Shown here: piece by piece, positions 2,574-59,638 of the stretch | Numbering within the stretch: position 1 is the first letter of the stretch | How the letters are laid out: every line of letters begins with the position of its first letter | From: a virus | Strand: one strand, 5' to 3' | DNA: 64,000 nucleotides | Virus record (IMG/VR): IMGVR_UViG_3300046820_002180 | Coordinates: 1-64,000 of that record | Position numbers and translations under genes: made by a program | Notes under the pieces: model-generated | What the model was told of the DNA's origin: nothing | Databases searched by the model: none | The model's input: the letters and a program-made list of their open reading frames with translations, nothing else

Positions 2574-2581
2574 TATTTATT
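2574..2581 (+). promoter_or_regulatory. TATTTATA-type element before gp25
   Basis: TATTTATT ending 3 nt before the ATG at 2585, just downstream of a terminator, so a new transcript must begin about here. It also overlaps TTATATTT. Such close spacing would give a nearly leaderless mRNA. Confidence 0.5.
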
Positions 2582-2584
2582 GAT

Positions 2585-3040
2585 ATGGCGTTAACATCAT
2601 ATGGAATTGACTATCCATTTAGAGATAGTAGATACGGAGATTACTTAAAAACTACCGAGTCTCCACAAAGAGAAGTAAGAGCTAATCTCATACACCTACT
2701 TTTAACAAGAAAGGGTACGAGATATTACTTACCTGACTTTGGGACAAGGTTATATGAATACATATTTGAACAAAATGATGTGGTAACATTCAATCATATT
2801 GAGGAGGAGATTCGTGAGGGTATAAGAAAATTTATACCAAATGTAGAAATCAAATCTTTAAACATAATGTCAGCGGAAAATGACCCTGATGAAACAAAAA
2901 CGTATACACAAGACGAAGACGAAAGATTGTTTAGGGTTTCTGATTATTCGAGTAAACCTTATACAGCTAAAGTTAAACTTGATTATACAGTAAATAACGG
3001 AGCATTTTCAGTATCAGACTTTATAATTATTAACATATAA
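2585..3040 (+). CDS. gp25: Baseplate wedge protein, T4 gp25-like
   Basis: 151 residues, close to the usual size of the gp25/GPW family. Contains the characteristic LLLTRKGTRYYLPDFG (residues 38-53), the strand-turn region conserved in T4 gp25 and phage P2 gpW-type baseplate proteins. In T4-like virions gp25 sits in the inner baseplate and starts sheath polymerisation by providing the first sheath-like handshake. The middle holds an acidic stretch (about residues 96-115) outside the core fold. One base separates it from gp6, the same order as in many T4-like and contractile-injection clusters. Family certain; lysozyme activity, sometimes quoted for gp25, is not implied. Confidence 0.93.
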   Translation: MALTSYGIDYPFRDSRYGDYLKTTESPQREVRANLIHLLLTRKGTRYYLPDFGTRLYEYIFEQNDVVTFNHIEEEIREGIRKFIPNVEIKSLNIMSAENDPDETKTYTQDEDERLFRVSDYSSKPYTAKVKLDYTVNNGAFSVSDFIIINI

Positions 3041-3041
3041 A

Positions 3042-4871
3042 ATGGCAAAAGAAATATCATACGCAACAAGAGATTTTGCAGGTTTAAGAGACGAATTAGT
3101 TTCATTAACTAAAAAGTATTATCCAGAATTAATAAGTAACTTTAACGATGCATCAATTTATTCAGTATTACTTGATTTAAATGCTGCGGTTGCTGATAAC
3201 TTACATTTCCATATAGATAGAGTTTGGCAGGAAACGATGTTGGACTTTGCACAACAAAGACAATCATTATTTCATATTGCAAAAACTTATGGTATCAGAC
3301 TACCTGGTTTAAGACCATCAGTTGCATTATGTGACTTCTCAATTAACGTTCCTGTTAGAGGTGATAAAGATGACGAAAGATATGAGGGTATTCTAAAAGC
3401 AGGGGCTCAAGTTTCAGGTGGAGGACAAATATTTGAAACTCTTGAGGATATTGATTTTTCAAATCCTTTCAATAGTAAAGGTGAACCTAATAGATTAAAG
3501 ATTCCAAATTTTGATAACAATAGTAAATTAATATCATATACAATCACCAAAAGAGAGGCGGTTGTAAATGGAACAACTAAGATTTATAGAAGAGTTATTA
3601 ACGAGGTTGACCAAAAACCATTCTTAAAACTATACCTACCTGAGAAAAACGTTTTGGGTGTTGTTAGTGTAATCCATAAATCAGGAACAAACTATGCTAG
3701 TAACCCTACATATGATGAATTCACAAACGGAAATAAATGGTATGAAGTTAAATCATTAATGGAAGATAGAGTTTTTATTGAGGACGCAACTACCATTTCA
3801 GATACAGATAATTTTAAATCCGGTGACTACCTTAGAGTTGATAATAAATTTATTACTGAGTATACACCTGAAGGTTATTTCAGTGTTACTTTCGGTTCAG
3901 GAAATGTAGACCCAATGGATAATTTGGATAACTATATGAACGGAACTATGAAAGTTAATATAGCAACTTTCCTTAATAATAACTCATTGGGTAACATACC
4001 AAGAGCAAATACCACATTATTCATCAAATATCGTATTGGTGGTGGTAAAGAATCAAATCTTGGGGTTAATGTAATAACATCAATAGATACAATTGATTTT
4101 GCATTAAATGGTCCAAATTCAACAATAAATGACCAAGTATATCAATCATTAAGAGTTACAAATATAACACCTGCAGTGGGTGGTGCTGATTCACCGACCA
4201 TAGAGGAAATTAGAAATATGGTTGCATATAACTTTGCAGCACAAAATAGAGCGGTAACATTAAATGACTATAAATCTTTAATTGAAACGATGCCATCAAC
4301 TTATGGAGCACCTGCTAAGGTTAGTGTGATGGAAGAAGACAACAAAGTGAGAATTAAATTATTATCGTACGATAGTGAAGGTAATTTAACGGATATTGTA
4401 TCTAACACACTTAAGAATAACGTATTGAACTATTTGTCTAAATTTAGAATGTTAAATGATTTCTTAGACATTATGAGTGGTGAAGTTATCGATTTAGGGT
4501 TGGAGGTTGATTTGGTTGTAAATAAAAACGAAAGTCAAAGTGACGTACTAAAAGAAACTGTTAATACTGTAACAAACTTCTTTGCTATCGACAAAAGAAA
4601 AATGGGTGACCCATTATTTGTTGGTGATTTGATGAGAGAAATAGGTAATGTAACAGGAGTTGTGAACGTTGTGGATGTTAGAGTATTCAACAAAATCGGT
4701 GGGAAATATTCATCAGCCGAAATATCTCAAGCTTACAAGGATAATATTACAAAAGAAATATTACAATTCGATTCGACCATATATATGAAATCAAATCAAA
4801 TTTGTCAAATTCGATTCCCACAAAGTGATATTAAAGTCAGAGTAAAAACTTTAACTTCGGCTACATATTAA
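3042..4871 (+). CDS. gp6: Baseplate wedge protein, T4 gp6-like (baseplate J family)
   Basis: 609 residues, near the 660 of T4 gp6. The N-terminus (ATRDFAGLRDELV, then a DASIYSVLLDLNAAVAD segment and a helical region with WQETMLDFAQQRQSLF) is typical of the gp6/gpJ-like wedge protein that forms the iris-like ring of the baseplate. The segment around residues 380-430 (GGADSPTIEEIRNMVAYNFA, then AQNRAVTLNDYKSLIETMPS) matches the conserved baseplate J core. Position directly after gp25 and before a gp7-sized gene supports the call. It starts with no recognisable Shine-Dalgarno, only an A-rich leader. Confidence 0.92.
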   Translation: MAKEISYATRDFAGLRDELVSLTKKYYPELISNFNDASIYSVLLDLNAAVADNLHFHIDRVWQETMLDFAQQRQSLFHIAKTYGIRLPGLRPSVALCDFSINVPVRGDKDDERYEGILKAGAQVSGGGQIFETLEDIDFSNPFNSKGEPNRLKIPNFDNNSKLISYTITKREAVVNGTTKIYRRVINEVDQKPFLKLYLPEKNVLGVVSVIHKSGTNYASNPTYDEFTNGNKWYEVKSLMEDRVFIEDATTISDTDNFKSGDYLRVDNKFITEYTPEGYFSVTFGSGNVDPMDNLDNYMNGTMKVNIATFLNNNSLGNIPRANTTLFIKYRIGGGKESNLGVNVITSIDTIDFALNGPNSTINDQVYQSLRVTNITPAVGGADSPTIEEIRNMVAYNFAAQNRAVTLNDYKSLIETMPSTYGAPAKVSVMEEDNKVRIKLLSYDSEGNLTDIVSNTLKNNVLNYLSKFRMLNDFLDIMSGEVIDLGLEVDLVVNKNESQSDVLKETVNTVTNFFAIDKRKMGDPLFVGDLMREIGNVTGVVNVVDVRVFNKIGGKYSSAEISQAYKDNITKEILQFDSTIYMKSNQICQIRFPQSDIKVRVKTLTSATY

Positions 4872-4880
4872 TTTGTTTTT

Positions 4881-4891
4881 TAGTTATCTTA
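4881..4891 (+). promoter_or_regulatory. Host-like -7 element TAGTTATCTTA
   Basis: Lies in the 53-nt gap between gp6 and the next baseplate gene. It resembles elements at 33.2 and 39.4 kb but has no TTTG box at the right distance. It may be a secondary start or chance. Confidence 0.25.
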
Positions 4892-4911
4892 TAAGAAAAC
4901 CATTGAGTTTC

Positions 4912-4919
4912 TATTTATT
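4912..4919 (+). promoter_or_regulatory. TATTTATA-type element before the gp7-position gene
   Basis: TATTTATT ending 5 nt before the ATG at 4925, in one of the few real gaps inside the baseplate operon. Confidence 0.5.
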
Positions 4920-4924
4920 ATAAG

Positions 4925-7900
4925 ATGATACAAAAACATAGAATTCATACCAATATTGGAGAAGACCAATACATTAAATTCGAAGTCAAACAAGATTTTG
5001 ATTTATTGGAGTTGTTGTCTTTAAAATTATCCCAAAGGGATGTGTACACATCGTTATGTGCTGACTATGGTGTTGTTTGTGGTAGACTTACCGTAAATAA
5101 TGGTTTTGGAGTACCAAACGCTCGAGTTTCAATTTTCGTACCATTAGACGATGACGATGTAAATGACCCTGTAATATCAGCGTTATACCCATATACTGAA
5201 GTTTCAGTTAAAGACGATAATCATTATCGATACAATTTATTACCGGCGAGAAGACAACATAGCGGACACGCGGCAACAGGTACATTTCCTGACCAAACAG
5301 ATATTTTAGATAGAGAAGAAGTTTTAGAGGTGTATGAAAAATATTACAAGTACACCGTAAAAACAAATAGTGCGGGTGACTTTATGATTTGGGGGGTACC
5401 ATTGGGTGAACAAATCATAGTATGTGACGTGGATTTGTCAGATATTAGTTGTTTCTCATTAAGACCTGATGATTACTTAAGAAAAGGATTCGGTTTAGAG
5501 GAATTTAAATCTGCTTATGAATTTAAGGCTAGTGTCGATATTGACTCACTTCCACAAATTAAAACATTTAGAAAAACAATTGAAGTTTATCCTTTTTGGG
5601 GTTCTGAAGATTTATGTGAAATTGGTATAACAAGAACCGATTTTGATTTATCAGACCAAGGAGTTAAAATTGAACCAAAGGCTTACCTTATTGGAGGAAC
5701 TTATACAGACGGTAGAGCGGGAGTCAAAGCAAATTGTAGTATTAAAAGAGATAGTAACAAAAAATGTGATTTAACGACAAAGGCTGGTAAAATAGAAATG
5801 ATTCGTTTTACTGCAGAATACGACTCCAACAACAGACCGATTTTAGAAGTATATGATGTAAAAGAAGACATCACGGATGACGGTTCATTTATTGTGTCGT
5901 TACCGATGAATATGGATTTTGTTTATACAAATGAATTTGGTGAGAATGAATATTCCAATGACCCAAACAAAGGTATACCAACATCAGGATGTTATCGTTT
6001 TAGATTTACAACACAACAACAAGGTACTGCTCAAATATTAGTACCTAACATTAGAGAGTACAGTACAAACATAGACAAGTCATACGCTTGGTCTAATAAT
6101 TATATCGATTACCCATCAGAAGCATTAAGTTTAATACTAAACACATCTGATGGATTTTATGTACCACAAGACTATTTTTATAGATTTACATATAATAAAG
6201 TTTTTACAGTATCATCATTTCATAATTCGTTTTTTAAAAATTCATTATCAACTCTTTCAGGTCAATTATTAGGAATAAAAGAAATTGCACCACCAAGAGA
6301 AGCCGATTGTGAATCTTCAGTTGTAACACCGCCGGTTAATTTTGGTTTTAGAAATTACACGGTTAAATTATTAATTGCAGATATATTATTATTCTTTGAA
6401 CAGTTAGCAACAGTATCTGGTTTTATTTTTAATAACACAGTAGCTAAAATTTTTCATAGATTTTCAGATGCTACGAATTTTTGGCCGATTAAGTCTGTTA
6501 GCAGGGCGTTAAGAAGATATGCTTACGGAATTCAAGATGGTGGACAAAGAGAATTGTTTTTAATTGATTATCCTTCTTGTCTTGAATGTAATAAAGATAA
6601 TGAATACGGTACTGTGGGCGGTTTAGGAAATGGAATTGATTATTGTGAGGTCGGTACTGTAACAATTCAAGGTTCATCTACGGAAACCCCAAGAACCGTA
6701 ACTGCAAGTAATTTTACTTTCTCAAATCCCGACCCTACAGGTATATGTTCAGGAGCGACAGTTCCAAGTGATTTAACAAATTTTTTAAATAATCAAACAA
6801 ATTATATTTTAACAACAAGTAGTAATGGTGTTCTTTTAACTGGTACCACCATTTTTACATCAGGAGCAACAATAACTTTTAACGATGTCTCAGGATTATT
6901 CAATGAGACGATAACATATACCGCAATAATTAGAGATAAAAATGCATCTTCGGTTGAATCAACCACAACTGACATATTAGAAGAGGGTTGTGCAATATAT
7001 GATACACCATATGATGAATCGTTAGTTCAGAAATATTATGTTGCACCAAATAGAACTGAAAAAACACCATTACAATACACTGCCGGAATGGATGTACAGG
7101 CCACCTTAATATCAGACGTTGACAGTAGTAATAAACCATTACCAACAATATATGACGGAGAAACCTATACACCAAGAACACCATCAGGTCAATCTGAATT
7201 TACTAATGGTATTTTTTATATGGTTCCCGGCACTATGACAAATCGTAGAGTGGTTAACATAATGAAAGAATATAGAAGACGTAGACGTATGTCTAAATTA
7301 TTTTGTTCGGGAGTTGTTAACTATTCATTCGTGGATAATTGGTTATCAGGTTCTTTATATTTCTTTACATTTGAAACACAAAAAAGATTTTTATTTTGGA
7401 GTAAATCTGCTTGTTGTGAACAATTAATTAAGAGAACGGTACAGACTAATTTAGAAACAAATCAAAGTGAATCACATTATTATTATAGGGCAACGCCATA
7501 TAATAACGGCACAGGTGTTTGGGGAAGAACATTTAACGGTTCGAGAAAAAGAATCAATAGACCAACAACTATTGTTGATTTAGGTCCGAGAGATGAATTC
7601 ATAAGAGAAATATGTGTAGACCCAAATCTTGACCCTAACTGCTCTGTGTCAAGAGAAATAGGACCAACTTCTTATAAAGATTTTGGTGAGATTCTTGGTA
7701 TGGCAATTAACTACAGAATGGATGTTAGTAACGCTAATTTCGACTTAAGAAATTTCTTTGATAATAATGGATTTTATAATAATGGAATTCGAAGTGCTTT
7801 CGATGGAGATTTATTACAATTAATATCAATTAATAATGAGGTGGGCATTGAACAATTTGATTTACAAAATCCAAAATATATTGGATATAGCTATCAAATA

Positions 7901-12211: not shown

Positions 12212-12217
12212 AAATTA

Positions 12218-12225
12218 TATTTATA
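12218..12225 (+). promoter_or_regulatory. TATTTATA element inside the baseplate operon
   Basis: Perfect TATTTATA in the 29-nt gap, 15 nt before the ATG at 12241; also reads TTATATTTATA. Confidence 0.5.
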
Positions 12226-12240
12226 GATAAATAATAAAAG

Positions 12241-19590: not shown

Positions 19591-19598
19591 TATTTATA
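19591..19598 (+). promoter_or_regulatory. TATTTATA element before the Hint gene
   Basis: TATTTATA 21 nt before the ATG at 19620, in the 57-nt gap after the giant adhesin gene. Confidence 0.5.
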
Positions 19599-20853: not shown

Positions 20854-20881
20854 AAACCCCTTTATTTTAAGGGGTTTTTTT
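20854..20881 (+). terminator. Intrinsic terminator
   Basis: AAACCCCTT / AAGGGGTTT, nine pairs, 6-nt loop, followed by a seven-base T run. It rules out the longer upstream reading of the next gene. Confidence 0.92.
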
Positions 20882-20913: not shown

Positions 20914-20921
20914 TATTTATG
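20914..20921 (+). promoter_or_regulatory. TATTTATG element before modular fibre gene
   Basis: Ends 4 nt before the ATG at 20926 and lies just after a terminator, so the transcript start must be very near the start codon. Confidence 0.55.
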
Positions 20922-24784: not shown

Positions 24785-24792
24785 TATTTATA
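24785..24792 (+). promoter_or_regulatory. TATTTATA element before 24797
   Basis: Perfect TATTTATA ending 4 nt before the ATG. Confidence 0.55.
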
Positions 24793-25934: not shown

Positions 25935-25942
25935 TATTTATA
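25935..25942 (+). promoter_or_regulatory. TATTTATA element before collar-fibre gene
   Basis: Perfect TATTTATA ending 4 nt before the ATG at 25947. Confidence 0.55.
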
Positions 25943-28155: not shown

Positions 28156-28163
28156 TATTTATA
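28156..28163 (+). promoter_or_regulatory. TATTTATA element before the RuvC-like gene
   Basis: Perfect TATTTATA, 9 nt before the ATG at 28173. Confidence 0.5.
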
Positions 28164-28812: not shown

Positions 28813-28820
28813 TATTTATT
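28813..28820 (+). promoter_or_regulatory. TATTTATA-type element before a possible small RNA
   Basis: TATTTATT in the 138-nt gap between the RuvC-like gene and the primase gene; about 50 nt downstream begins a strong terminator with no coding region between. Confidence 0.35.
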
Positions 28821-28825
28821 AATAG

Positions 28826-28862
28826 GACGGGACGTGGGTTAAAATCCACGTTTGGTTGGTGT
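28826..28862 (+). ncRNA. Possible small RNA body
   Basis: ACGTGG (28832-28837) pairs with CCACGT (28846-28851) around an 8-nt loop, followed by a G/T-rich linker and a terminator hairpin. With the upstream element this could be a transcript of about 70 nt with two hairpins. It may equally be the 3' end of the virion/RuvC transcript. No known RNA family recognised. Confidence 0.3.
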
Positions 28863-28895
28863 TCCCTCGGAGTGGTGTCCGAGGGATTTTTTTTT
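28863..28895 (+). terminator. Intrinsic terminator before the primase gene
   Basis: TCCCTCGGA / TCCGAGGGA, nine perfect pairs, 6-nt loop, then a nine-base T run. It is the strongest terminator in the window, closing the late block. Confidence 0.95.
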
Positions 28896-37575: not shown

Positions 37576-37600
37576 AAGGGGACTAATAGTCCCCTTCTTC
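37576..37600 (+). terminator. Hairpin terminator after clpP
   Basis: AAGGGGACT / AGTCCCCTT around AAT, followed by a weak CTTC tract instead of a full T run; strong stem, moderate terminator. Confidence 0.75.
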
Positions 37601-37601
37601 A

Positions 37602-37609
37602 TATTTATA
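37602..37609 (+). promoter_or_regulatory. TATTTATA element before the envelope-protein cluster
   Basis: Perfect TATTTATA directly after the clpP terminator, 13 nt before the ATG at 37623. Confidence 0.55.
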
Positions 37610-39418: not shown

Positions 39419-39436
39419 AATATTTTAGTTATCTTT
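39407..39436 (+). promoter_or_regulatory. Bacteroidota-type promoter before the sigma gene
   Basis: TTTG (39407-39410), 19-nt spacer, TATCTTT (39430-39436) within TTTTAGTTATCTTT; start codon 21 nt further. Same geometry as the promoter at 33192. Host polymerase could thus make the phage sigma factor early. Confidence 0.6.
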
Positions 39437-39457
39437 AGAGTATCTAAACTTACTCTA

Positions 39458-40267
39458 ATGGCCAAAAAACACATCATCATTAACACCGAGGAAATCCAAC
39501 AGTATCTTAAAGATTTAAAAAAGATACCAGTAATTACACACCAAAGACAAGACGAAATTTTTGAACAACTAATAAAGAAAGAACTTCCCAAAGAAGAACT
39601 TGAGGCTATGAAAGAAGAGTTAGTTGTTGGTAATTTACGATTCGTCGTTTCAGTTTCTAAATCGTATCAAAATCAAGGATTAGATTTATTAGACATTATT
39701 TCTGAAGGAAATATTGGACTATTGAAAGCAATTGAAAGATTTGACCCCACATCAGGAGTTAAGTTTATTTCGTATGCCGTATGGTGGGTAAAACAATCCA
39801 TTATGGCGTCCTTAAATGAGAATGCAAGAACTATTAGAATTCCTTCTAACCTTGTTCAGGAAGCACAAAAAGCTAAGAAAGAATATAATGACGAAGAAAG
39901 TTATTATATCAAATATACAGATGAACCAACAAGTAGTAGTCTACCATATTGTGTTGGGTTATATGACGAAATTAATGATGAGGGTGACCAATTAATTGAT
40001 GTAATTAAAAATCCGAATCAAGATAACCCCGAAGACATTCTTAACACTAAAGAAGAAATTAGAAAAAGGGTTGAAAGAGTATTGAGTGTTTTAGATGATA
40101 GAGAGAAAGTAATTATTGAAAAATATTTTGGTTTAAACGGTATTGAATCCAATTTAGAAGACCTTGGAGAAGAGTTTAATTGTACTAAAGAAAGAATTAG
40201 ACAACTTAAAGACAAGGCCATAAAGAAACTCAGAAACGAGAGTTATTCGTTAATAAACTATTTATAA
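39458..40267 (+). CDS. RNA polymerase sigma-70 family factor
   Basis: 269 residues. Region 1.2-like start (EEIQQYLKDLKKIPVITHQR), region 2 at about 52-127 (NLRFVVSVSKSYQNQGLDLL; SYAVWWVKQSIMASLNENAR), and region 4 helix-turn-helix at about 229-258 (LEDLGEEFNCTKERIRQLKD). The wording of region 2 is very close to Bacteroidota primary sigma factors, unlike the divergent T4 gp55. It probably redirects host polymerase; the TATTTATA elements in this window are the obvious candidate targets (inference). Region 2.4 and 3.0 differ from the host type (TIRIPSNLVQEAQK), consistent with a changed -10 preference. Confidence 0.92.
   Translation: MAKKHIIINTEEIQQYLKDLKKIPVITHQRQDEIFEQLIKKELPKEELEAMKEELVVGNLRFVVSVSKSYQNQGLDLLDIISEGNIGLLKAIERFDPTSGVKFISYAVWWVKQSIMASLNENARTIRIPSNLVQEAQKAKKEYNDEESYYIKYTDEPTSSSLPYCVGLYDEINDEGDQLIDVIKNPNQDNPEDILNTKEEIRKRVERVLSVLDDREKVIIEKYFGLNGIESNLEDLGEEFNCTKERIRQLKDKAIKKLRNESYSLINYL
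40259..40266 (+). promoter_or_regulatory. TATTTATA element at the end of the sigma gene
   Basis: Perfect TATTTATA formed by the last codons of the sigma gene, 11 nt before the ATG at 40278. Confidence 0.4.
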
Positions 40268-41984: not shown

Positions 41985-42226
41985 AAGAAGAGTCGGAAAC
42001 CACATTTTTATCGACACCATCCCCTACGACCTCGGAGGAATTTGATGAACTCTATTTAGAGTCGGATGAGACCAACCCTCTCCAAATAATATATGATTTA
42101 GATAACGATAGAGTAATTGTCCCAACATCAGACGATGATTCAATTATTGAAGAACAGACCCTAAATCCTGCTAGAAAAACATTCAGAAGAAATGTCGGAA
42201 ATTCAAGACGTAGAAATTCTCGATAA
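41970..42226 (+). other. ATG-less -1 frame extension of the 40560 gene
   Basis: 85 codons in the -1 frame from the A10 tract to TAA 42224-42226, with no ATG before the amidase-like gene. It begins SSGELEEESETTFLSTPSP and ends with a basic tail (ARKTFRRNVGNSRRRNSR). The first half is acidic like the upstream tail. This fills the otherwise empty 41985-42191 gap. It overlaps the next gene by 35 nt. Confidence 0.55.
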
Positions 42227-42809
42227 GAGTAAGTTAAACATTGTAAGAAAACGTAGTAAAAAAACACAAATTCTATTATACGACACCAAAAGAAGAGTGG
42301 ACAATTTCATTTTGAAATTAAAACACAGGAAAAATGGTAAGTATGAAGACATCCCACACTTCATTATAACCAAAATGGGGGTAGTTTATCAGTTGTTTGA
42401 TACAAAGTATAGCTCAAACACTTTTAACGACTCTAACGTCGATAAGAAACAGATTAAGATAGCAATGGAGAATCTCGGATGGTTGAACAAAAACACCATC
42501 ACGGGATTTCTTAATAATTGGATTGGTGACCCATACAGAACCGACCCTCATATAAGAAATTGGAGAAACCATTATTTTTGGGATAAGTACACCGAAGAAC
42601 AAAAATCGGCACTTGTTAACCTATGTTCAGTACTATGTGACGAACATAACATCCCCTACCATACCGTACCATCGCAGGGTTATATCGAAAACTTAACAAA
42701 ATTCAAAGGAATTGTATGTAAATCCAACTTTCTGAATATTTATACAGATATAAACCCATCATTCGATTTTAGAATATTTTATAGCGATGCAAAAGAAACC
42801 AACAAATAG
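42192..42809 (+). CDS. Amidase_2/PGRP-like protein, possibly inactive
   Basis: 205 residues. The order of elements resembles N-acetylmuramoyl-L-alanine amidases: PHFIITKMGVVYQLFD (the usual hF-x-I-x-x-x-G-x-I-y-q strand pair), an NLGWL strand, KYTEEQKSALVNLCSVLCDE helix, and YTDINPSFDFRIF (usual K-x-D-P-G-P-x-F-x-W end). The first zinc His expected in the strand before the first helix appears as Tyr (ILLYDTKR), and the second His region reads GIVCKSNF. So the zinc site looks degenerate or rearranged. It could be a cell-wall-binding virion protein or an amidase with altered ligands. Confidence 0.45.
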   Translation: MSEIQDVEILDKSKLNIVRKRSKKTQILLYDTKRRVDNFILKLKHRKNGKYEDIPHFIITKMGVVYQLFDTKYSSNTFNDSNVDKKQIKIAMENLGWLNKNTITGFLNNWIGDPYRTDPHIRNWRNHYFWDKYTEEQKSALVNLCSVLCDEHNIPYHTVPSQGYIENLTKFKGIVCKSNFLNIYTDINPSFDFRIFYSDAKETNK

Positions 42810-43327: not shown

Positions 43328-43567
43328 ATGCCACTTACAGCAGCAGACAAGGCCGAAGTAGAAAGAATTGCGAGAAAAGAGATGAAAGACTTTCTTGATA
43401 CGACTCAGGCTCACAATATAGTTATCAAAGTCATCCAAAAAGAATTGGGTACCAAAAAAATTGACGATAAAATCGTCGACCTATCAACTAAGGTTGTGGT
43501 TGAATTATTCAAGACTCTATGGCAAAGAAAGTCTTTTTGGGAATCATCATTAAAAAATGTTAGATAA
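43328..43567 (+). CDS. Small helical protein of unknown function
   Basis: 79 residues, predicted all-helical with charged N-terminus (ADKAEVERIARKEMKDFL) and an aromatic end (VVELFKTLWQRKSFWESSLK). One base after the preceding stop and overlapping the next gene by 11 nt, so part of the same operon. Confidence 0.5.
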   Translation: MPLTAADKAEVERIARKEMKDFLDTTQAHNIVIKVIQKELGTKKIDDKIVDLSTKVVVELFKTLWQRKSFWESSLKNVR

Positions 43568-44627
43568 ATTAAAATATAGAAAACCCAACTTCAACCGAGA
43601 ATGGTTAGAAGCTAACAGATATCCGGAATTTCAAGATATTGGGAAATCAGGATGGTTAGAACTTGCACCAAATGGAAGTGTTGTAAGATATTCAAACATT
43701 AAGGATGTTCTAGGGAATGTTAATTTAGATTTTGATTCATTAGAAAAAGATAAAAAACAGAGATTTATTGAGGATTATAAAACAGGTGTAATTGAAGTAC
43801 CTATTGCCGTTAAATTTAATGATTTTGAATATGATTTATTGGGTGGTAACACCAGATTAGCGGGATTAATTAGAATAGGTCACGACCCTAAGATTTGGGT
43901 AGTCCAAGCACCCGGTTGGGATTATAATGATACGGAAGAGTTAAGTGAAGATTTGAGAAGATGGTTTAAAGAGAAATGGGTAGATGTTAGTAAAAAGGTA
44001 GACGGTAAACACCCACCTTGTGGTAGAAAAGATGCTGACGGTAAATCATATCCAAAATGTAGACCATCGAAAAAGGTTTCTAAAGACACCCCTAAAGTTG
44101 CGTCTTCATATGATAAAGATGAAAAGAAAGCAATGACCCAACAAAAAAGAAGAGCTGAGAAAGAAGAACCTAAAGTTGGAAAGGGTAACAAACCTACAAT
44201 GACTCACTTTGATGAAATGACGGGAGCAGCATCAGCAGGAGCATTTTCAGCACCAATGTCTTTTACTAAAAAAGACGTTCAAGAAGCTATGGACGCAGGT
44301 ATCTCAGCAGCGGCGGCTTTCGATGTACCATTGTTTGGTGCAACAACCAAAGGTGGTAGAAAGGACCCACTTAAGATTGATGGCCCTGAAAGTATTGGTA
44401 AGAGTAGAGCGGTTAAGGATAAATCATTCCCGAAGTTCGGAGGACCTGGTGGAATTTTTATAAAAATTAAGGATAAGTGTAAAAAGTTTCCATATTGTAA
44501 TCAAGGAGACATAAATGCAATTGAAATACTGAGAGAAACTATAGAAGATACCGCAAAAAAACACGGATTACCTATCGGTGAGGTTGAAAAAATTGTATTA
44601 AAAGGAATTAAAGATATATTTATTTAG
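43557..44627 (+). CDS. Multi-motif protein with ParB-like segment and Cys-Lys motifs
   Basis: 356 residues. Residues 80-108 (EVPIAVKFNDFEYDLLGGNT, then RLAGLIRIG) match a ParB/sulfiredoxin-like nucleotide-binding loop (GNTRL). Residues 131-180 (LRRWFKEKWVDVSKK, HPPCGRKDADGKSYPKCRPS, KKVSKDTPK) form a Lys-rich paired-Cys motif that recurs in many large-phage proteins (DUF5872-like, from memory). A further CKKFPYCNQGD motif near the C-terminus ends in a helical domain. It looks like several small nucleic-acid- or protein-binding elements in series. Enzyme activity cannot be claimed. Confidence 0.6.
   Translation: MLDKLKYRKPNFNREWLEANRYPEFQDIGKSGWLELAPNGSVVRYSNIKDVLGNVNLDFDSLEKDKKQRFIEDYKTGVIEVPIAVKFNDFEYDLLGGNTRLAGLIRIGHDPKIWVVQAPGWDYNDTEELSEDLRRWFKEKWVDVSKKVDGKHPPCGRKDADGKSYPKCRPSKKVSKDTPKVASSYDKDEKKAMTQQKRRAEKEEPKVGKGNKPTMTHFDEMTGAASAGAFSAPMSFTKKDVQEAMDAGISAAAAFDVPLFGATTKGGRKDPLKIDGPESIGKSRAVKDKSFPKFGGPGGIFIKIKDKCKKFPYCNQGDINAIEILRETIEDTAKKHGLPIGEVEKIVLKGIKDIFI
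44617..44624 (+). promoter_or_regulatory. TATTTATA-type element at the end of the 43557 gene
   Basis: TATTTATT inside the last codons of the preceding gene, ending 4 nt before the ATG at 44629. The same spacing occurs before several fibre genes. Confidence 0.45.
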
Positions 44628-44628
44628 T

Positions 44629-46185
44629 ATGAAAACAACAGAAATTAGAAATATCATTGATGAGGTTTTAAACGAAGAAGTTAAAAACGCCATCACAAAC
44701 GAAGGAGGAACAACTAAAAGAGTAAAATACCACGTTACTTGTGAAGGTGAACCATTAGCAACATTCGATACCCTCGATGAAGCTAAGGACTATTGTGAAA
44801 AGAATAAAGATGGTGAGCTAAAAGGTAAAAAGAAATTACTTATTGATAAAAAAACTTACGGGTCATATCAAGAGATGATAGACCATCTTGATGAAATTGC
44901 ACAATCATTAGAAGAAAAAGAAAGTTCTGAAGAATCTCTTGATGAAGAAATTGCAATTGAAGAGGATTGTTGGGATGGATATAAACAAGTTGGTGGTAAA
45001 ATGAAGAACGGTAAAATGGTTCCTAATTGTGTTCCGACTAATGAGGCAAGTAGTCCTGCACAACAGGCGGCAATTGCTATTAATATGAAAGAGAAAGGAA
45101 TTGAACCTAAGAACGAATCCACAGAAGAAATAAATGAAGGTGAAAACCAACCAACAAACCCATCATTATGGTCAAGAGCAAAATCTTTAGCCAAATCAAA
45201 ATTTGATGTGTATCCAAGTGCTTACGCTAACGGATGGGCTGCTAAATGGTATAAATCAAAAGGCGGAGGATGGAAGAAGAAAAAGAAAACCAAGAACGAA
45301 TCTACAGAATTAAAAGAAACAGAAAATATGGAAAATCAACAACCAATGGAAGGTAATGGATACATCAAAGCAATGTTAGATGCAAAAGAAAAGGGAGAAG
45401 ACACATTTGATTTTGATGGAGAAACTCACGACGTTAAAGAAGTGTATAGTCAATTAGAGGAAGAAGAAGGTATGTGTGAAGGAAGTGGATGTTCGGGCGA
45501 AATAAATGAAGGTTCAGAAATATGTGAACAATGTGGAAATACATTAATGGAAGATGGTAGTTGTAATGAATGTTCAAAGCAAATGAATGAATCAAAAAAG
45601 AAAAAAGTAAGATTAACTGAAAAAGAATTAACCGACTTAATTGGTAAATTAGTTTTAGAATCAATACCAGGTTTAGAAGCGTTGAAAAAGTCACACGGAC
45701 AAGCATCGGGACAAGATTTAAAAGATAGCACAAAAAAGATTGCCGATTATTTAAAGTTTTCAGGTAACACAAATCCTGAATTCCCTAATCAAATGGGTGT
45801 TGAAGAAGATAAAGAAGCGTACAGAAACACTAGTGATGAAGAAGAATTTGTTGACACTTACAGAGGTAAGGGTTTACAAGATTTAGATTACGATAACAAA
45901 CCTTCTAAAGAGTTTATCGATAGATTGAGAATGGCGTTGGAAGGTGATTCTAAAATGGGTAATGGTCAAAAAGACACAGCAAACACCACACCAAGTAAAG
46001 TTGGTGAGAAAATTTTTAAATCAATAGATAAAGAAAAGAAAACAAGAAAGGCAGAACCTATGTATAAAAAGGACCCTGCACCGACTACTGAAGTAAACGA
46101 ATCTAAAAAAATGTCAAAAAGTTTAGTATCTGAAGAAATTCAGAGAATGAAAAATATGACAAACTACAATAAGAAAACTCAGTAA
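44629..46185 (+). CDS. Acidic multi-motif protein with zinc-ribbon-like Cys cluster
   Basis: 518 residues. An alpha/beta N-terminus, a CWDGYKQVGGKMKNGKMVPN segment then C (about 118-139), a KFDVYPSAYANGWAAKWYKS motif (about 188-207) familiar from large-phage proteins, and a zinc-ribbon-like cluster CSGEIN...CEQCGN...CNEC (about 285-322). Long acidic stretches link them. The end (LVSEEIQRMKNMTNYNKKTQ) is a helical tail of the sort seen on several T4-like phage structural or scaffold proteins. It may be a scaffold or internal virion protein; function unproven. Confidence 0.55.
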   Translation: MKTTEIRNIIDEVLNEEVKNAITNEGGTTKRVKYHVTCEGEPLATFDTLDEAKDYCEKNKDGELKGKKKLLIDKKTYGSYQEMIDHLDEIAQSLEEKESSEESLDEEIAIEEDCWDGYKQVGGKMKNGKMVPNCVPTNEASSPAQQAAIAINMKEKGIEPKNESTEEINEGENQPTNPSLWSRAKSLAKSKFDVYPSAYANGWAAKWYKSKGGGWKKKKKTKNESTELKETENMENQQPMEGNGYIKAMLDAKEKGEDTFDFDGETHDVKEVYSQLEEEEGMCEGSGCSGEINEGSEICEQCGNTLMEDGSCNECSKQMNESKKKKVRLTEKELTDLIGKLVLESIPGLEALKKSHGQASGQDLKDSTKKIADYLKFSGNTNPEFPNQMGVEEDKEAYRNTSDEEEFVDTYRGKGLQDLDYDNKPSKEFIDRLRMALEGDSKMGNGQKDTANTTPSKVGEKIFKSIDKEKKTRKAEPMYKKDPAPTTEVNESKKMSKSLVSEEIQRMKNMTNYNKKTQ

Positions 46186-48651: not shown

Positions 48652-48713
48652 ATTAAAATATAACTATTTCCAAGATAAAAATCAAACCCATTTCTTTTTC
48701 TCATTTTTTTTAT

Positions 48714-48721
48714 TTATATTT
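48714..48721 (+). promoter_or_regulatory. TTATATTT element (overlapping TATTTATA) before dam
   Basis: TTATATTT 20 nt before the ATG at 48742; overlapping TATTTATA at 48711-48718. The gap is also the divergent promoter region for the minus-strand pair. Confidence 0.4.
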
Positions 48722-49582: not shown

Positions 49583-49590
49583 TATTTATA
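49583..49590 (+). promoter_or_regulatory. TATTTATA element before nusG
   Basis: Perfect TATTTATA, 14 nt before the ATG at 49605. Confidence 0.5.
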
Positions 49591-49604: not shown

Positions 49605-50129
49605 ATGAGTACAAGTTGGTATGTGGTAAAAGTTTTACCGGGTAAGGAAAGACAATTAACCGAACAATATAATAAGGAAATTTCTTTGGGTAGTATTAAA
49701 AACATCCTTAGATTTGTGTGTCCTCTTGAGAAAAACTTAGTTGTTGTAAAAAACAAAAAAGTAATTAGAGAAAAAGTTCTTTACAGTGGATATCTTTATT
49801 TCGAAACCAAACAAAAATTGAATGATGATGACCTTAAAGTGATTGCTCATCAACAATCAATTATGGGAATACTTGGGGATAAAACACCTATACTTTTAAG
49901 AGAAAGTGATGTTGCAAGAATTTTAAAAGATGAAGTTCTTGATGAACATATACAATCTAAAAAAATTACATTAAACAGCGGCGACATTGTTTCAATATCT
50001 GACGGTGCATTTAATGGATTTAATGGTGTGATATCATCAGTTAAAGGAGACAAAGTGGATGTTGAGGTTAAGATATTTGGTAGAGGAACGATTGTTACCG
50101 TTGGTATTGAGCACGTAGAAAAAGTATAA
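49605..50129 (+). CDS. nusG: NusG-like transcription elongation factor
   Basis: 174 residues, the normal NusG length. N-terminal NGN domain (TSWYVVKVLPGKERQLTEQY, with KVLYSGYLYFE) and C-terminal KOW domain (NSGDIVSISDGAFNGFNGVI, then VDVEVKIFGRGTIVTVG). NusG binds the RNA polymerase clamp, promotes processivity and links to Rho or the ribosome. A phage paralogue could favour antitermination on phage genes. Its own element and close proximity to the AAA+ gene suggest a control block. Stop overlaps the next start (TAATG). Confidence 0.92.
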   Translation: MSTSWYVVKVLPGKERQLTEQYNKEISLGSIKNILRFVCPLEKNLVVVKNKKVIREKVLYSGYLYFETKQKLNDDDLKVIAHQQSIMGILGDKTPILLRESDVARILKDEVLDEHIQSKKITLNSGDIVSISDGAFNGFNGVISSVKGDKVDVEVKIFGRGTIVTVGIEHVEKV

Positions 50130-50410: not shown

Positions 50411-50433
50411 CTTTTCTATTAAACAATTTTTAA

Positions 50434-50441
50434 TTATCTTT
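50434..50441 (+). promoter_or_regulatory. TTATCTTT element before the AAA+ gene
   Basis: TTATCTTT only 5 nt before the ATG at 50447, in a 36-nt gap. Confidence 0.3.
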
Positions 50442-50446
50442 CTATT

Positions 50447-51828: not shown

Positions 51829-51829
51829 T

Positions 51830-52102
51830 ATGAGTAACACAATTATTATTTTTACTTTAAAAACTTGTGGACATTGTGCTAGTTTAAAAGAAAAATTAAC
51901 AGAATTATCAATTCCGTATGAAGAATTGGAAATAAATCAGAATCGACCTATATGGGACCAAGTAGTTAGTCAAACAGGTCATAATTTATTACCTACGATA
52001 TTCATAAAGAAGGAAAACGATGACACAGGACCTATTTTTATACCCGGCCGTGACTTCCAAAATCACGATGAAGCGGTTGAAATAATCAAAAATTACGTTT
52101 AA
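51830..52102 (+). CDS. grx: Glutaredoxin
   Basis: 90 residues. Active site C13-G-H-C16 (LKTCGHCASLK; CPYC is more usual), and LLPTIFIKK with the cis-Pro. It reduces disulfides using glutathione or another low-molecular thiol; many Bacteroidota lack glutathione, so reduction via thioredoxin reductase, as for NrdH, may apply. Probable second donor for ribonucleotide reductase. Ends at a terminator. Confidence 0.9.
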   Translation: MSNTIIIFTLKTCGHCASLKEKLTELSIPYEELEINQNRPIWDQVVSQTGHNLLPTIFIKKENDDTGPIFIPGRDFQNHDEAVEIIKNYV

Positions 52103-52105
52103 AAT

Positions 52106-52134
52106 AAAAAGGGATTAAAAAAATCCCTTTTTTT
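52106..52134 (+). terminator. Intrinsic terminator after glutaredoxin
   Basis: AAAAAGGGATT / AATCCCTTTTT, eleven pairs, 5-nt A loop, and a T run. Separates the control/redox block from the fibre locus. Confidence 0.93.
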
Positions 52135-52157
52135 ATGCTGACATCTGAAATAAAAAG

Positions 52158-52165
52158 TATTTATG
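52158..52165 (+). promoter_or_regulatory. TATTTATG element before first right-hand fibre gene
   Basis: GTATTTATG 19 nt before the ATG at 52185, just after a terminator. Confidence 0.55.
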
Positions 52166-52184
52166 TAAAAGACTTTACATTTCA

Positions 52185-52955: not shown

Positions 52956-52967
52956 TTAAAAATAAAG

Positions 52968-52975
52968 TATTTATA
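52968..52975 (+). promoter_or_regulatory. TATTTATA element before 52997
   Basis: GTATTTATA 21 nt before the ATG. Confidence 0.55.
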
Positions 52976-52996
52976 TAAAAGAATTAAAATTACAAT

Positions 52997-54985: not shown

Positions 54986-55004
54986 ACAAATTGAACATAA
55001 TATT

Positions 55005-55033
55005 AAAGGGAACTCACAAGGTTCCCTTTTTTT
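55005..55033 (+). terminator. Intrinsic terminator between fibre genes
   Basis: AAAGGGAAC / GTTCCCTTT, nine pairs, 7-nt loop, T run. Confidence 0.92.
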
Positions 55034-55036
55034 ATG

Positions 55037-55044
55037 TATTTATA
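55037..55044 (+). promoter_or_regulatory. TATTTATA element before 55048
   Basis: GTATTTATA ending 3 nt before the ATG and only 3 nt after a terminator's T run; leaves almost no room for a leader. Confidence 0.6.
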
Positions 55045-55047
55045 GAT

Positions 55048-55170
55048 ATGGCGATAACAATGACCGAAGGATTTATTTTAACAATAACAGAAGTTAACGG
55101 ATTATTATTAACCGAAGATAATGTTATTATAATAAGTCAAGATGATGAACAATTACAACCTAACGAATAA
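55048..55170 (+). CDS. 40-residue protein coupled to a fibre gene
   Basis: MAITMTEGFILTITEVNGLL, then LTEDNVIIISQDDEQLQPNE. Beta-hairpin-like with an acidic end. Stop overlaps the next fibre gene's start (TAATG), and a TATTTATA element sits directly ahead, so it looks real. It could be a small fibre chaperone, a connector, or just a leader peptide. Confidence 0.6.
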   Translation: MAITMTEGFILTITEVNGLLLTEDNVIIISQDDEQLQPNE

Positions 55171-56270
55171 TGGGAAATAGAAAAATAGACCAATTACCAC
55201 AATTTAGTGGAGACACCAGTGGTGTTCACATTGTGATTAATAACCCAAGTAACACAACAACACATACAGTAACAAAAGAAATTTTACTTGATGGTAATAA
55301 TACATTTCACGGTAACCAAGTGATTAGTGGTTCTTTAGAAATTACGGGAACAACCACATTGGGTGGAAATATTGTTCCAAAAACAGCAAGAGGAGCAACA
55401 TTGGGAACTTTATCAAATCCATTTGCGGATATATATGTTTCATCAGGTTCTATTAATATTGCGGGTGTTCCGGGGCAACCAAATACAACATTATCAAACG
55501 TAAGTGGAAACATCTTAATATCTGCGGGTGGTATGCAATTGGTTGGTTCAGGTGCGTTCAATGCGGCAACAGGTTCATTCCAATTTATTTCAGGTAGTAT
55601 GGAACAGATTGGTAATTACACACAAACGGGTAATTACGTAATGAATGGTAATAAAACTATTACAGGTTCGTTAAAAATCACAGGTAGTGGATTTATTAAT
55701 TCACACAGAATATTAACAGATTTAGATAGTGGCTCATTTAATGTAACAATTAGTGGAAATACAAATGATAATGTATTAACCGCAACTGGCCAGGCTAATA
55801 CACTACAAGGAGAATCAAATTTAAAATTTGATGGTACAAACTTAAATTTAACGGGTTCTGCAATTGTTAATGGTAATGTAAATGTAACAGGTTCAGCAAT
55901 TGTCAATGGTAATGTAATTGTTACGGGTTCTCTTATTATGGACAGTACCTTACAAACAAACATTTCACACACGGTGACAAACCCTTCAAACTATGTGTTA
56001 CATCAATTTTTAACATCATCATATCACGGAGCAACATATGCATTTTCAGCACACAATGATAGTACGGGTAAAGTGACGGTTTATAGTAATTACATAGTTG
56101 CTCAGGGAGCAAATTCAATCAATTCAAATATTGGAGGTGATTCAAAAGTTACTTCGGGTGGTGGTGCACCAAATCCGGCATTTGCTGTGGGTTTTAGTGG
56201 GAGTTATGCACAATTTAAAGTGACAGACACTGGAACGTTTACATATAGAGGAATAGTTCAACTATATTAA
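55170..56270 (+). CDS. Tail fibre protein
   Basis: 366 residues. Starts MGNRKIDQLPQFSGDTSG, then shaft strands (NNTFHGNQVISGSLEITGTT; KFDGTNLNLTGSAIVNGNVN, VTGSAIVNGNVIVTGS), with a head of about 110 residues at the C-terminus (SYHGATYAFSAHNDSTGKV; SGGGAPNPAFAVGFSGSYAQ). It lacks the DNII/LWD module of the neighbouring fibres. Possibly a short fibre tip or a homotrimer partner. Confidence 0.72.
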   Translation: MGNRKIDQLPQFSGDTSGVHIVINNPSNTTTHTVTKEILLDGNNTFHGNQVISGSLEITGTTTLGGNIVPKTARGATLGTLSNPFADIYVSSGSINIAGVPGQPNTTLSNVSGNILISAGGMQLVGSGAFNAATGSFQFISGSMEQIGNYTQTGNYVMNGNKTITGSLKITGSGFINSHRILTDLDSGSFNVTISGNTNDNVLTATGQANTLQGESNLKFDGTNLNLTGSAIVNGNVNVTGSAIVNGNVIVTGSLIMDSTLQTNISHTVTNPSNYVLHQFLTSSYHGATYAFSAHNDSTGKVTVYSNYIVAQGANSINSNIGGDSKVTSGGGAPNPAFAVGFSGSYAQFKVTDTGTFTYRGIVQLY

Positions 56271-56309
56271 ATTTATTTCTTTTTCGTTTATTTAATCTTA
56301 ATTTTTATG

Positions 56310-56317
56310 TATTTATA
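56310..56317 (+). promoter_or_regulatory. TATTTATA element with long leader
   Basis: GTATTTATA 65 nt before the ATG at 56383, by far the longest leader among these elements. Confidence 0.55.
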
Positions 56318-56320
56318 AGA

Positions 56321-56370
56321 AGACCTACATAGGTCTAATTAACCGTGGTATATACCACAAAACATAGGAG
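56321..56370 (+). promoter_or_regulatory. Structured 5' leader with a rare Shine-Dalgarno-like site
   Basis: Two hairpins: AGACCT/AGGTCT with loop ACAT (56321-56336), and GTGGT/ACCAC with loop ATAT (56345-56358). Then AGGAG (56366-56370) 12 nt before the ATG. SD-like sites are nearly absent elsewhere in the window, so this leader may confer stability or control to the largest complete fibre mRNA. Confidence 0.45.
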
Positions 56371-56382
56371 AGAACCATATAT

Positions 56383-59300
56383 ATGGCACAAATAGTAAAA
56401 CTGCGTAGGAGTAGTGTATCCGGTCAAAAACCCACTAACTCAAATTTACAATTAGGTGAATTAGCATTAAACACTACCGATGGTAAGGTTTATATGGCAG
56501 TTTCAGGTTCTCTCGGACCATCAGTTGAGGAATTAATATCAACAAACACGGTTAATACAGGTTCAATACATCTTGTTGGTAATGTAACAGCATCACATTT
56601 TTCAGGTTCATTTATTGGTGATGGTACAAATCTATATAACATACCTGCAAGTGGTGTTACGGGATTAAATTTAACAAGAATTGCTGACGGTAATGCGACC
56701 GCATCGATATCAAATTCCCAAGGTTTAAAAATTAACACAAATACCGAAATCACGGGTTCGTTAATTGTGTCTTCAGGTTCTGCGGTGTTTGATGCCTCTT
56801 TACAATTAACAGAAAATAGTTCATTAATATTAAACAGTGGTAGTAATCTCTATGTTTATGACGGTGGTATTATTAGTGGAACATTTAAAGGTAATGGTGC
56901 ATTATTAACTGACTTACCTTACGCGACTACCGGGTCAAATCAATTTAATGGTAACCAAACAATCACAGGTTCCCTTACCATCACTCAAAATTTAAGAGTA
57001 TTAGGGTCATCTTCAATTGTTTATTCAACTGCATCACAATTAATTGTTGAAGATAACATTATCGTAGTGAATGCTTCATATCCTGCTGCAAGATTTTCAG
57101 GTTTGGAGGTACACGATTCGGGTTCAAATGGAAACATTACCGCTTCGTTTTTATGGGACGGATTACATAATAGATGGATTTATCAAAATAGTTCGGAAGC
57201 CCATTATGGTGGTGCGATGTTTATTGCGGGACCAAGAAATACAGGTTCATTAGGTGATGAACAAACATTAACAAGTGGTAGAATACCAAAATCAATTGGT
57301 GGTGACCACATAGGTGATTCATTAATATCTGAAACAGGCACAACAATTACAATTGCTGGTAATTTAATTGTAAATTCACTAACTGGTTCGATTAATTATA
57401 ATAACCTAACAAATGTACCAACATTGGTATCAGGTTCACCACAAATTGAAATCACGGGAACAACAGGATATTCAGATTATAGTTCAAGTATATCAACATC
57501 AATAGGTTCTTTAAGTTCATCAATTGCAACAACAACAAACGATTTAGATGGTAGATTAGATTCAATAGAATTAACGACGGGTTCGTTAAATACTTACACT
57601 AGTTCTAACACCACTAATATCAATGCGATTCATACCGCAACGAGTAGTTTAAATTCATTTACCACATCATATAGTACGGGTTCATTTACAGGTTCATTTA
57701 TTGGTAATGGTATTGGTTTATATAATATTCCTGCGACAGGTGTTACAGGATTACAATTAGATAAAATTGTTAGTGGTAATGCAAGTGCTTCCATTAATAA
57801 TAATGGTTTTTATGTTAATAGAGATGTTTATGTTGATGGTACAATTACAGCAAAAGAAATTCATACAGATTATGTAACATCTTCAGTTTTATTCCAAAGT
57901 GGTAGTACTAAATTTGGTAACACAAGTGACGACACACATCAATTTACAGGTTCAGTATATATTACAGGCTCTATTGTTTCTAGTGATACACCATTAGTGT
58001 CAGGCTCATCACAAATAGACATCACCAACACCACAGGATACTCAACATTTAGTAGTTCGATAAAAAATAGTATTGATGATGTAACAGGCTCAATTGCTAA
58101 TTTATCTTCCTCAGTAAAGGTTAGAATAGATGATGTTACGGGTTCTATCACAGCATTATCATCTTCAGTAAAAGTTAGAATTGATGATGTGACCGGTTCA
58201 ATTACCGCATTGTCTTCGTCTGTGAAGGTTAGAATTGATGATGTTACAGGTTCTATAACAGCATTATCTTCCTCAGTAAAGGTTAGAATAGATGATGTCA
58301 CTGGTTCTATAACAACATTATCTTCCTCAGTAAAAAATAGTCTAGATACTGTAACAGGTTCTATCACAGTATTATCTTCCTCAGTAAAAAATAGTATAGA
58401 TACTGTAACAGGTTCTATCACTAGTTTATCATCATCTGTTAAGAATAGTTTTGATACCATCACAGGGTCAATTACAAGTCTATCTTCATCAGTAAAAGTT
58501 AGAATAGATAGTTTAACAGGTTCGATTGATTCATTAAATACATTTAGCTCAAGTGTTGTATTAACATCACAAACATCTTCAATGTCGGTATTAAGTGCGT
58601 CATATGCTGTAACCGCAGCATTTGCATTAAATGCGGGTGGAGGTGGTGGTCAAGGTACCACATATGTTCATACACAATCATCCGCTTCAACAACTTGGAC
58701 AGTAACACACAATTTAGGTGAGAGATATCCTGCAATTGTTGTATTCGACTCATCAGGTAATGTAATTATACCAACAAACATATCAGCACAATCAACAAGT
58801 ACATTAGTTGTAACATTCTCATCTGCACAAACAGGTAAAGTTAGTGCAACTGTTGGTGGTGGACTACCACACATTAGTGCAAGTTATGAAGGAAGAGTTT
58901 TAGCGGTTTATAATGATGAACCAATATGGAAAGCAGGTATTATTTCAGGTTCACAACAACTTGGTAATTTAGGTTTTGCAACCACAGGTTCAAATACATT
59001 TTACGGTAACCAAACCATAAGTGGAACAACAACTATTAACATTGCAACATTAGGTTCAAAATGTGTGACAATATCAAGTAACACTGCAATATTTGATTTA
59101 GGCGACTTTGACGGTGCCAATTTTGATTATGTGGTTAAAAACGGCTCAAATATGAGAGCGGGTATGATAATGTCAGCTTGGGACGGTTCAAACTCGGTTT
59201 ATAATGAAACCTCAACAATGGATATGGGTTCAACAACGGGAGTTACTTTTACAGTTTCAGGATTAGGTGTGTTAAATGTTAATATCTCTTCAGGAACTTG

Positions 59301-59610
59301 GGCGGTGGAAGTTTTATATAGAGCACTTGGTTGTTCAACAATTAACCCACCATCATCCTCATCATCAACGAATTATCTAATCAGTACAGGGTTTACGGCA
59401 CCTGATTATTGTAATGGTTTATTTGGTACCGACCAAACAGTTTATGGTGATGATTCGGCTTGGACATCCGTTACAAGATTCTATACCAATAGTGGAATGA
59501 CGACACCATTTAATGGTGGAAGTTTATGGTACGGAGACTCAACGGCGTACTTTGGAACCACACTACAAATTGATAGTGATGGATATGTAATTGATAGTTA
59601 TGCTTGTTAA
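56383..59610 (+). CDS. Long tail fibre protein with coiled-coil repeats and tip domain
   Basis: 1075 residues. N-terminal attachment start MAQIVKLRRSSVSGQKPTN, GELALNTTDGKVYMA. The shared fibre module is at about 220-280 (LIVEDNIIVVNASYPAARFS; GNITASFLWDGLHNRWIYQN). Nine 18-residue heptad-like repeats (SSSVKVRIDDVTGSITAL) at about 557-718 form a trimeric coiled-coil shaft. Then a Gly-rich turn (NAGGGGGQGTT), a beta domain, and a C-terminal tip domain (APDYCNGLFG; SLWYGDSTAY; TLQIDSDGYVIDSYAC) also found in two left-hand fibre genes. Probably the main receptor-binding long fibre or one part of it. Confidence 0.83.
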   Translation: MAQIVKLRRSSVSGQKPTNSNLQLGELALNTTDGKVYMAVSGSLGPSVEELISTNTVNTGSIHLVGNVTASHFSGSFIGDGTNLYNIPASGVTGLNLTRIADGNATASISNSQGLKINTNTEITGSLIVSSGSAVFDASLQLTENSSLILNSGSNLYVYDGGIISGTFKGNGALLTDLPYATTGSNQFNGNQTITGSLTITQNLRVLGSSSIVYSTASQLIVEDNIIVVNASYPAARFSGLEVHDSGSNGNITASFLWDGLHNRWIYQNSSEAHYGGAMFIAGPRNTGSLGDEQTLTSGRIPKSIGGDHIGDSLISETGTTITIAGNLIVNSLTGSINYNNLTNVPTLVSGSPQIEITGTTGYSDYSSSISTSIGSLSSSIATTTNDLDGRLDSIELTTGSLNTYTSSNTTNINAIHTATSSLNSFTTSYSTGSFTGSFIGNGIGLYNIPATGVTGLQLDKIVSGNASASINNNGFYVNRDVYVDGTITAKEIHTDYVTSSVLFQSGSTKFGNTSDDTHQFTGSVYITGSIVSSDTPLVSGSSQIDITNTTGYSTFSSSIKNSIDDVTGSIANLSSSVKVRIDDVTGSITALSSSVKVRIDDVTGSITALSSSVKVRIDDVTGSITALSSSVKVRIDDVTGSITTLSSSVKNSLDTVTGSITVLSSSVKNSIDTVTGSITSLSSSVKNSFDTITGSITSLSSSVKVRIDSLTGSIDSLNTFSSSVVLTSQTSSMSVLSASYAVTAAFALNAGGGGGQGTTYVHTQSSASTTWTVTHNLGERYPAIVVFDSSGNVIIPTNISAQSTSTLVVTFSSAQTGKVSATVGGGLPHISASYEGRVLAVYNDEPIWKAGIISGSQQLGNLGFATTGSNTFYGNQTISGTTTINIATLGSKCVTISSNTAIFDLGDFDGANFDYVVKNGSNMRAGMIMSAWDGSNSVYNETSTMDMGSTTGVTFTVSGLGVLNVNISSGTWAVEVLYRALGCSTINPPSSSSSTNYLISTGFTAPDYCNGLFGTDQTVYGDDSAWTSVTRFYTNSGMTTPFNGGSLWYGDSTAYFGTTLQIDSDGYVIDSYAC
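58051..58536 (+). repeat. Nine tandem 54-bp repeats (coiled-coil shaft)
   Basis: Each unit codes SSSVK[VN][RS]xDxxTGSIxxL. Units 2-4 are the most alike at protein level, with silent changes, so duplication is not very recent. Copy number probably sets shaft length. Confidence 0.88.
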
Positions 59611-59630
59611 AATATAATCACAATTTATAG

Positions 59631-59638
59631 TATTTATT
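59631..59638 (+). promoter_or_regulatory. TATTTATA-type element before the last fibre gene
   Basis: GTATTTATT 35 nt before the ATG at 59674, in the 63-nt gap. Confidence 0.5.

Follow-up and report, generated by a model that had tools for sequence, protein, structure and literature searches.

A predicted late promoter box with a probable leaderless subset in T4-like phages of Bacteroidota

The motif TATTTAT(W), which recurs upstream of genes in an uncultivated phage genome, very probably acts as a late promoter box of the -10 type, lacking a -35 element, in a large clade of T4-like myoviruses that infect Bacteroidota (probability about 0.85 for this explanation as a whole, clade and host included). 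The late promoter reading is strongly supported by the sense placement of the box, its conservation, its spacing, the terminators that precede it and the separation of early from late genes. A phage late sigma factor, most likely a gp55-like protein whose gene accompanies the head module, would bring the host RNA polymerase to the box, and transcription would start approximately 5-6 nt downstream of it. Where the ATG lies 4-6 nt past the box, the mRNA would begin at the AUG and be leaderless; the other boxes would give a short AT-rich leader. Early genes would be transcribed from the host promoter (TTG-N19-TAnnTTTG). The first-pass annotation, which had proposed a possible leaderless late promoter, read the element mostly correctly: comparison of related sequences predicts that TATTTAT is a lineage-specific class of late promoter, composed of a -10 box only and with a large leaderless subset. 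A search of papers outside subscription found no description of a TATTTAT promoter.

The window, that is, the whole stretch of DNA that was analysed, comprises positions 1-64,000 of virus record IMGVR_UViG_3300046820_002180 (159,820 bp in full; G000), and was compared with nine related records including that of the cultured Flavobacterium phage immuto (NC_055915.1). It encodes gp25-like and gp6-like baseplate wedge proteins, and the closest named phage is immuto, with 29% identity in gp6. None of the terminase, portal, capsid and head protease genes present in its relative G001 was found in the 159,820-bp record, which is therefore incomplete; contigs related to it reach 310 kb. The phage family is abundant as well as uncultivated and T4-like: in a scan of IMG/VR with gp6 at least 600 stretches matched, and 80 loci from these were retained. 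Host-type promoters (TTG-N18-22-TAnnTTTG) occur 40 times in the sense and 11 times in the antisense direction in the related genomes, against 2-6 for permuted versions, and this sense enrichment supports a Bacteroidota host. The box provides a testable late promoter for uncultivated T4-like phages and for immuto, and accounts for the split of these phage genomes into early and late blocks.

Placement, strand and conservation of the box

All 18 TATTTAT sites in the first-pass annotation were found on the plus strand where it had placed them (Table 1), and the seven short gaps that it gave (before 2585, 4925, 20926, 24797, 25947, 44629 and 55048) are exact, with 3-5 nt between the end of the 8-mer and the ATG. 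The list was incomplete, since the boxes at 48711 and 42737 also precede genes. Most sites lie directly before start codons as claimed, but the one at 28813 precedes a structured RNA. The description of the downstream genes as mostly virion genes holds in part; a NusG, a DNA methyltransferase and a RuvC-like resolvase are also among them. The observation that several boxes directly follow a terminator was borne out at four sites.

Table 1. Predicted late boxes and associated features in the window
Feature	Coordinates	Strand	Context
Late box TATTTATT	2574..2581	+	3 nt (8-mer) before gp25-like baseplate gene 2585, after terminator 2523-2544
Late box TATTTATT	4912..4919	+	Before large gene 4925
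Late box	12218..12225	+	Before 12241; leadered, 16 nt
Late box	19591..19598	+	Before 19620; leadered, 22 nt
Late box	20914..20921	+	Before true start 20926, after terminator 20854-20877
Late box	24785..24792	+	Before 24797; leaderless class
Late box	25935..25942	+	Before 25947; leaderless class
Late box	28156..28163	+	Before RuvC-like gene 28173
Late box	28813..28820	+	Before structured noncoding RNA; no start codon
Predicted small structured RNA with own terminator	28825..28895	+	Behind 28813 box; covariation
Late box	37602..37609	+	Before 37623, after terminator 37576-37596
Sigma70-type sigma factor, regions 2 and 4	39458..40267	+	TTG-N19-TATCTTTA promoter; no late box
Late box	40259..40266	+	Overlaps end of sigma gene; before 40278
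Possible late box, weak	42737..42744	+	Inside 42192-42809, 43 nt before 42787
Late box	44617..44624	+	At end of 43557-44627, before 44629; leaderless class
Late box, absent from earlier list	48711..48718	+	Before DNA methyltransferase gene 48742
Late box	49583..49590	+	Before NusG-like gene 49605
NusG-like antiterminator	49605..50129	+	Late-box gene
Late box	52158..52165	+	Before 52185
Late box	52968..52975	+	Before 52997
Late box	55037..55044	+	Before small gene 55048, after terminator 55005-55029
Late box	56310..56317	+	66 nt before 56383
Late box	59631..59638	+	36 nt before 59674

The abundance of the motif is uninformative because its raw count in the window sits at the shuffle mean (32 occurrences of TATTTATD in 64 kb against 36.4), and this is the one point in favor of a chance pattern in AT-rich gaps. 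Placement, strand and conservation contradict that explanation. The first-pass annotation had proposed a count in gaps on both strands, and the excess over shuffled sequence is indeed present: when the gaps of the whole record are read in the orientation of the gene that follows, TATTTAT occurs 22 times, compared with a mean of 5.2 (sd 2.25, maximum 13) in 500 dinucleotide shuffles, and six times in the antisense direction. Seven genes of the record have a box 4-6 nt before the ATG where 0.44 are expected. Sense gaps of relatives are similarly enriched (57 observed versus 8.0 shuffled in G001, 49 versus 10.4 in G002 and 35 versus 4.9 in immuto, which has 13 antisense sites). Across nine records, 228 TATTTAT sites lie within 25 nt of an ATG, while each of the 20 alternative orderings of these letters has 25-124; the motif also ranks first of these 21 heptamers in the gaps of G000 itself. 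Shuffles, permuted heptamers and conservation together rule out chance, the probability of which is negligible.

Among the matches listed, 73 of 74 loci have the box before gene 4925, which follows gp6, as do 23 of the 24 divergent representatives, and the box stays in place while its flanks drift in sequence and length. The box before gp25 is found in nearly all listed loci with a clear gp25 start and is always a few nucleotides from the ATG. Boxes in immuto precede the genes for terminase, portal, tail sheath, tail tube and tape measure, mostly at 17-26 nt from the ATG; in G001 the distance from the box to the start of the terminase and portal genes is 4 nt. No box was evident in the 50-kb stretches examined of Microcystis phage Mel-JY01 and LR756508, which are related more distantly, and the element is thus regarded as lineage specific. 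A logo of 219 pooled sites contains only TATTTATW, with no -35 or other shared upstream element (upstream positions carry at most 0.12 bits, except for the base adjoining the box). The gap at 4875-4911 has an element of its own, a T-run followed by TTAT and AGAAAA, which lies 15-40 nt upstream of the 4925 box and is kept in most relatives; other late boxes do not have it in common.

A predicted structured RNA and the alternatives to a late promoter

Five nucleotides past the 28813 box begins a 71-nt sequence that contains two hairpins and a T-run. Relatives carry it at the equivalent place, with the RuvC-like gene on one side and the primase gene on the other, and a TATTTAT or TATTTAA box usually precedes it. 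Of its 21 predicted pairs, 13 show compensatory changes in 14 sequences. A search of the window against Rfam gave no match. The sequence is predicted to be a small structured RNA that would be driven by the 28813 box. Its conserved parts are the GACGG start, the GTTGG linker and the TGGTGT loop. More distant relatives (L209, L211, L214-L217, L227 and L231) carry a different hairpin terminator before the primase gene that often retains the TTGGTGT or TGGTGT loop, suggesting that the loop upstream of primase is conserved for a function.

A box with no start codon that precedes a covarying RNA cannot be explained by a role in translation, and this weighs against the idea that TATTTAT is a translation-initiation or mRNA-stability element. 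That idea draws on the closeness of the box to many start codons and on the fact that Bacteroidota are without Shine-Dalgarno signals (PMC7366714). However, the distance from box to ATG ranges from 4 to more than 40 nt in two classes, which upholds the argument of the first-pass annotation that such distances do not fit a translation signal, and the box often lies right behind a terminator. A translational or stability element is therefore considered very unlikely. Recognition of the box by the host sigma A or by an alternative host sigma factor is somewhat less remote but still improbable. TATTTAT has TA and a T in common with the TAnnTTTG consensus (PMC9723704), but when tested against the sigma A promoter of Bacteroidota it has neither TAnnTTTG nor the TTG at -33. 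Promoters of the host type (TTG-N19-TAnnTTTG) form a set of their own, an early block apart from TATTTAT in the same genomes: in G002 nearly all of them lie within 149-185 kb, and nearly all TATTTAT sites lie outside that block. Additionally, the motifs of Flavobacterium sigma factors that are quoted in the available part of PMC9723704 do not include TATTTAT. Three host-type early promoters lie outside the window in G000 (at 134942, 137373 and 146906); two of these are 4 nt from an ATG, measured from the end of TAnnTTTG, and would be leaderless too.

Candidate readers of the box

Two phage sigma factors are candidates for reading the late promoter. The protein encoded at 39458 is a complete sigma70-type factor with an intact region 4. 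It is kept at 68-99% in G001-G005 and G007, all of which bear boxes, and could read the late promoter with the host core polymerase. However, no match to Sigma70_r2 or phrog_351 was found in immuto, which has boxes all the same, and an intact region 4 is at odds with a box that has no -35 partner. The 39458 factor is therefore disfavored as the sole reader, and its reading of the late promoter is unlikely. Its gene has a host-type promoter-like sequence upstream at 39419-39457 (the corresponding sequence in G001 is TACCTTTA), which suggests that the factor is expressed before the late genes. The first-pass annotation had suggested this sigma factor and NusG as dedicated machinery of the box, and neither is favored as its reader: a gp55-like sigma factor tracks the box better than the former, and NusG looks like a client, since a late box precedes its own gene in G000, G001, G002 and G004.

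The gp55-like protein is a second sigma factor of 232 amino acids that occurs in G001, G003, G006 and immuto and is absent from the incomplete record G000; it is encoded by immuto and by those relatives that carry the head module. Its match to phrog_234 (late sigma transcription factor) has an E value of 2e-4, and a genome search of G001, G003 and G006 gave values of approximately 1e-5. When its profile was searched against the PDB, T4 gp55 was the best match, although the similarity is weak (E=3.8e-4). A structural model of the protein resembles sigma factors (TM of 0.66-0.68 of the target for region 2), and its top Foldseek matches are sigma factors, but with E values above 0.01. Nearly all of 37 IMG/VR relatives with at least 45% identity lie near TATTTAT boxes. 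Because it occurs with the box in immuto, matches phrog_234 and gp55, and has relatives near boxes, the gp55-like protein is most likely the better candidate reader, and it is inferred that this phage also carries the gene. The finding points to a gp55-type sigma factor beyond the classical T4 group that has a different box. The C-terminal part of the protein was considered as a sigma region 4, for which the PDB profile search gave no support. Immuto gp118 (NC_055915.1, 78174-78872), annotated as hypothetical, is a relative of this putative late sigma factor.

Predicted leaderless late mRNAs and known promoter systems

The distances from box to ATG at 258 pooled sites are bimodal. There are 31 sites at 4 nt, 30 at 5, 20 at 6, seven at 7, three at 8 and none at 9, followed by a second broad group at 10-24 nt; the 4-6 nt class thus holds 81 of the 258 sites, while two sites lie at 0 nt, one at 2 nt and none at 1 or 3 nt. 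A spacing of 3-7 nt is found for 90 of 236 boxes in the clade (approximately 38%) and for 4 of 34 in immuto. The start codons of 85 close sites (4-6 nt) are almost strictly AUG (82 ATG, two TTG and one GTG). At leadered sites, nucleotides 5-6 after the box are A in 70-72% of cases against a background of 51%. The Flavobacterium TAnnTTTG element spans -12 to -5 (PMC9723704), and TATTTATW set at the same positions puts +1 on the A of an ATG at distance 5. In T4 the late box, 8 nt long, lies approximately one turn upstream of the start, with its first base at -13 and no -35 element (PMC2988020), and this geometry requires a distance of 6 for a start at the AUG. Late mRNAs from boxes 4-6 nt before an ATG thus probably start at the AUG, as judged from spacing. 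The claim that the mRNA begins at or next to the ATG is supported for this class only; the remaining boxes would leave leaders of approximately 5-20 nt or more.

The leaderless share of mRNAs in F. psychrophilum is given as 5.5% (PMC9723704), and approximately 3.7% of 5' UTRs in B. thetaiotaomicron are shorter than 10 nt (PMC7366714). The phages may impose, through a diverged gp55-type sigma factor whose box places the start site at the AUG, a phage-wide switch in which early mRNAs, mostly leadered and made with host sigma A, give way to late mRNAs of which more than a third are leaderless, a proposal given slightly better than even odds. If true, the switch would take place in a host phylum that is without Shine-Dalgarno signals and in which approximately 5% of mRNAs are leaderless. 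It would offer a natural system in which to study how Bacteroidota translate leaderless messages; initiation without Shine-Dalgarno signals is still poorly understood in this phylum.

The nearest parallel is the T4 late promoter (TATAAATA, read by gp55 with gp33 and gp45). Both have a single 8-bp AT box that precedes the start by approximately 10 nt and is followed by AT-rich sequence, both lack a -35 element and serve late virion genes, and a gp55-like sigma factor is present in the relatives and in immuto. However, the letters of the box here are the reverse complement (TATTTATA) of the T4 box, and more than a third of the boxes are 3-7 nt from an ATG. By analogy, the promoter class would function in the manner of T4 late promoters; it is not assigned to the T4 system, because the letters differ and a gp45-type sliding clamp coactivator was not found with PF02916 or PF09116, two Pfam models that distant homologues could escape. 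The first-pass annotation was right about the reverse complement as letters, but the element is directional (22 sense and 6 antisense) and is thus not a T4 box read backwards. In the sense orientation TATAAATA is not enriched in G000 or immuto; in G000, 6 of 100 TATAAAT sites are near starts compared with 24 of 58 TATTTAT sites, in immuto the corresponding figures are 12 of 95 and 33 of 99, and a backwards T4 box was rejected.

Other systems share fewer features. As described in the available text of PMC8948821, the middle and late promoters of phiEco32 (tAATGTAtA) also consist of a single element, with a start 6-8 bp downstream, read by a phage sigma factor (gp36) with the host polymerase, but their sequence is different, the phage type is unrelated and the promoters are not reported there to be leaderless. 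The sigma A promoter of Bacteroidota (TAnnTTTG with TTG at -33) has TA in the corresponding position and serves the early genes of these phages, whereas TATTTATW has neither the TTTG half nor the -33 element and marks another set of genes. The late promoters of phiKZ (TATG) and AR9 are likewise short, phage specific and late, but are read by phage multisubunit polymerases. The AR9 paper (PMC5312081) notes that transcripts of phages often lack leaders, but the leaders of AR9 itself are 26-491 nt long.

A separate observation concerns the genes on either side of the 44617 box. The products of 43557 and 44629 (43557-46185) share segments that are rearranged among the relatives G007, G001 and G006, which suggests recombination between their repeated domains.
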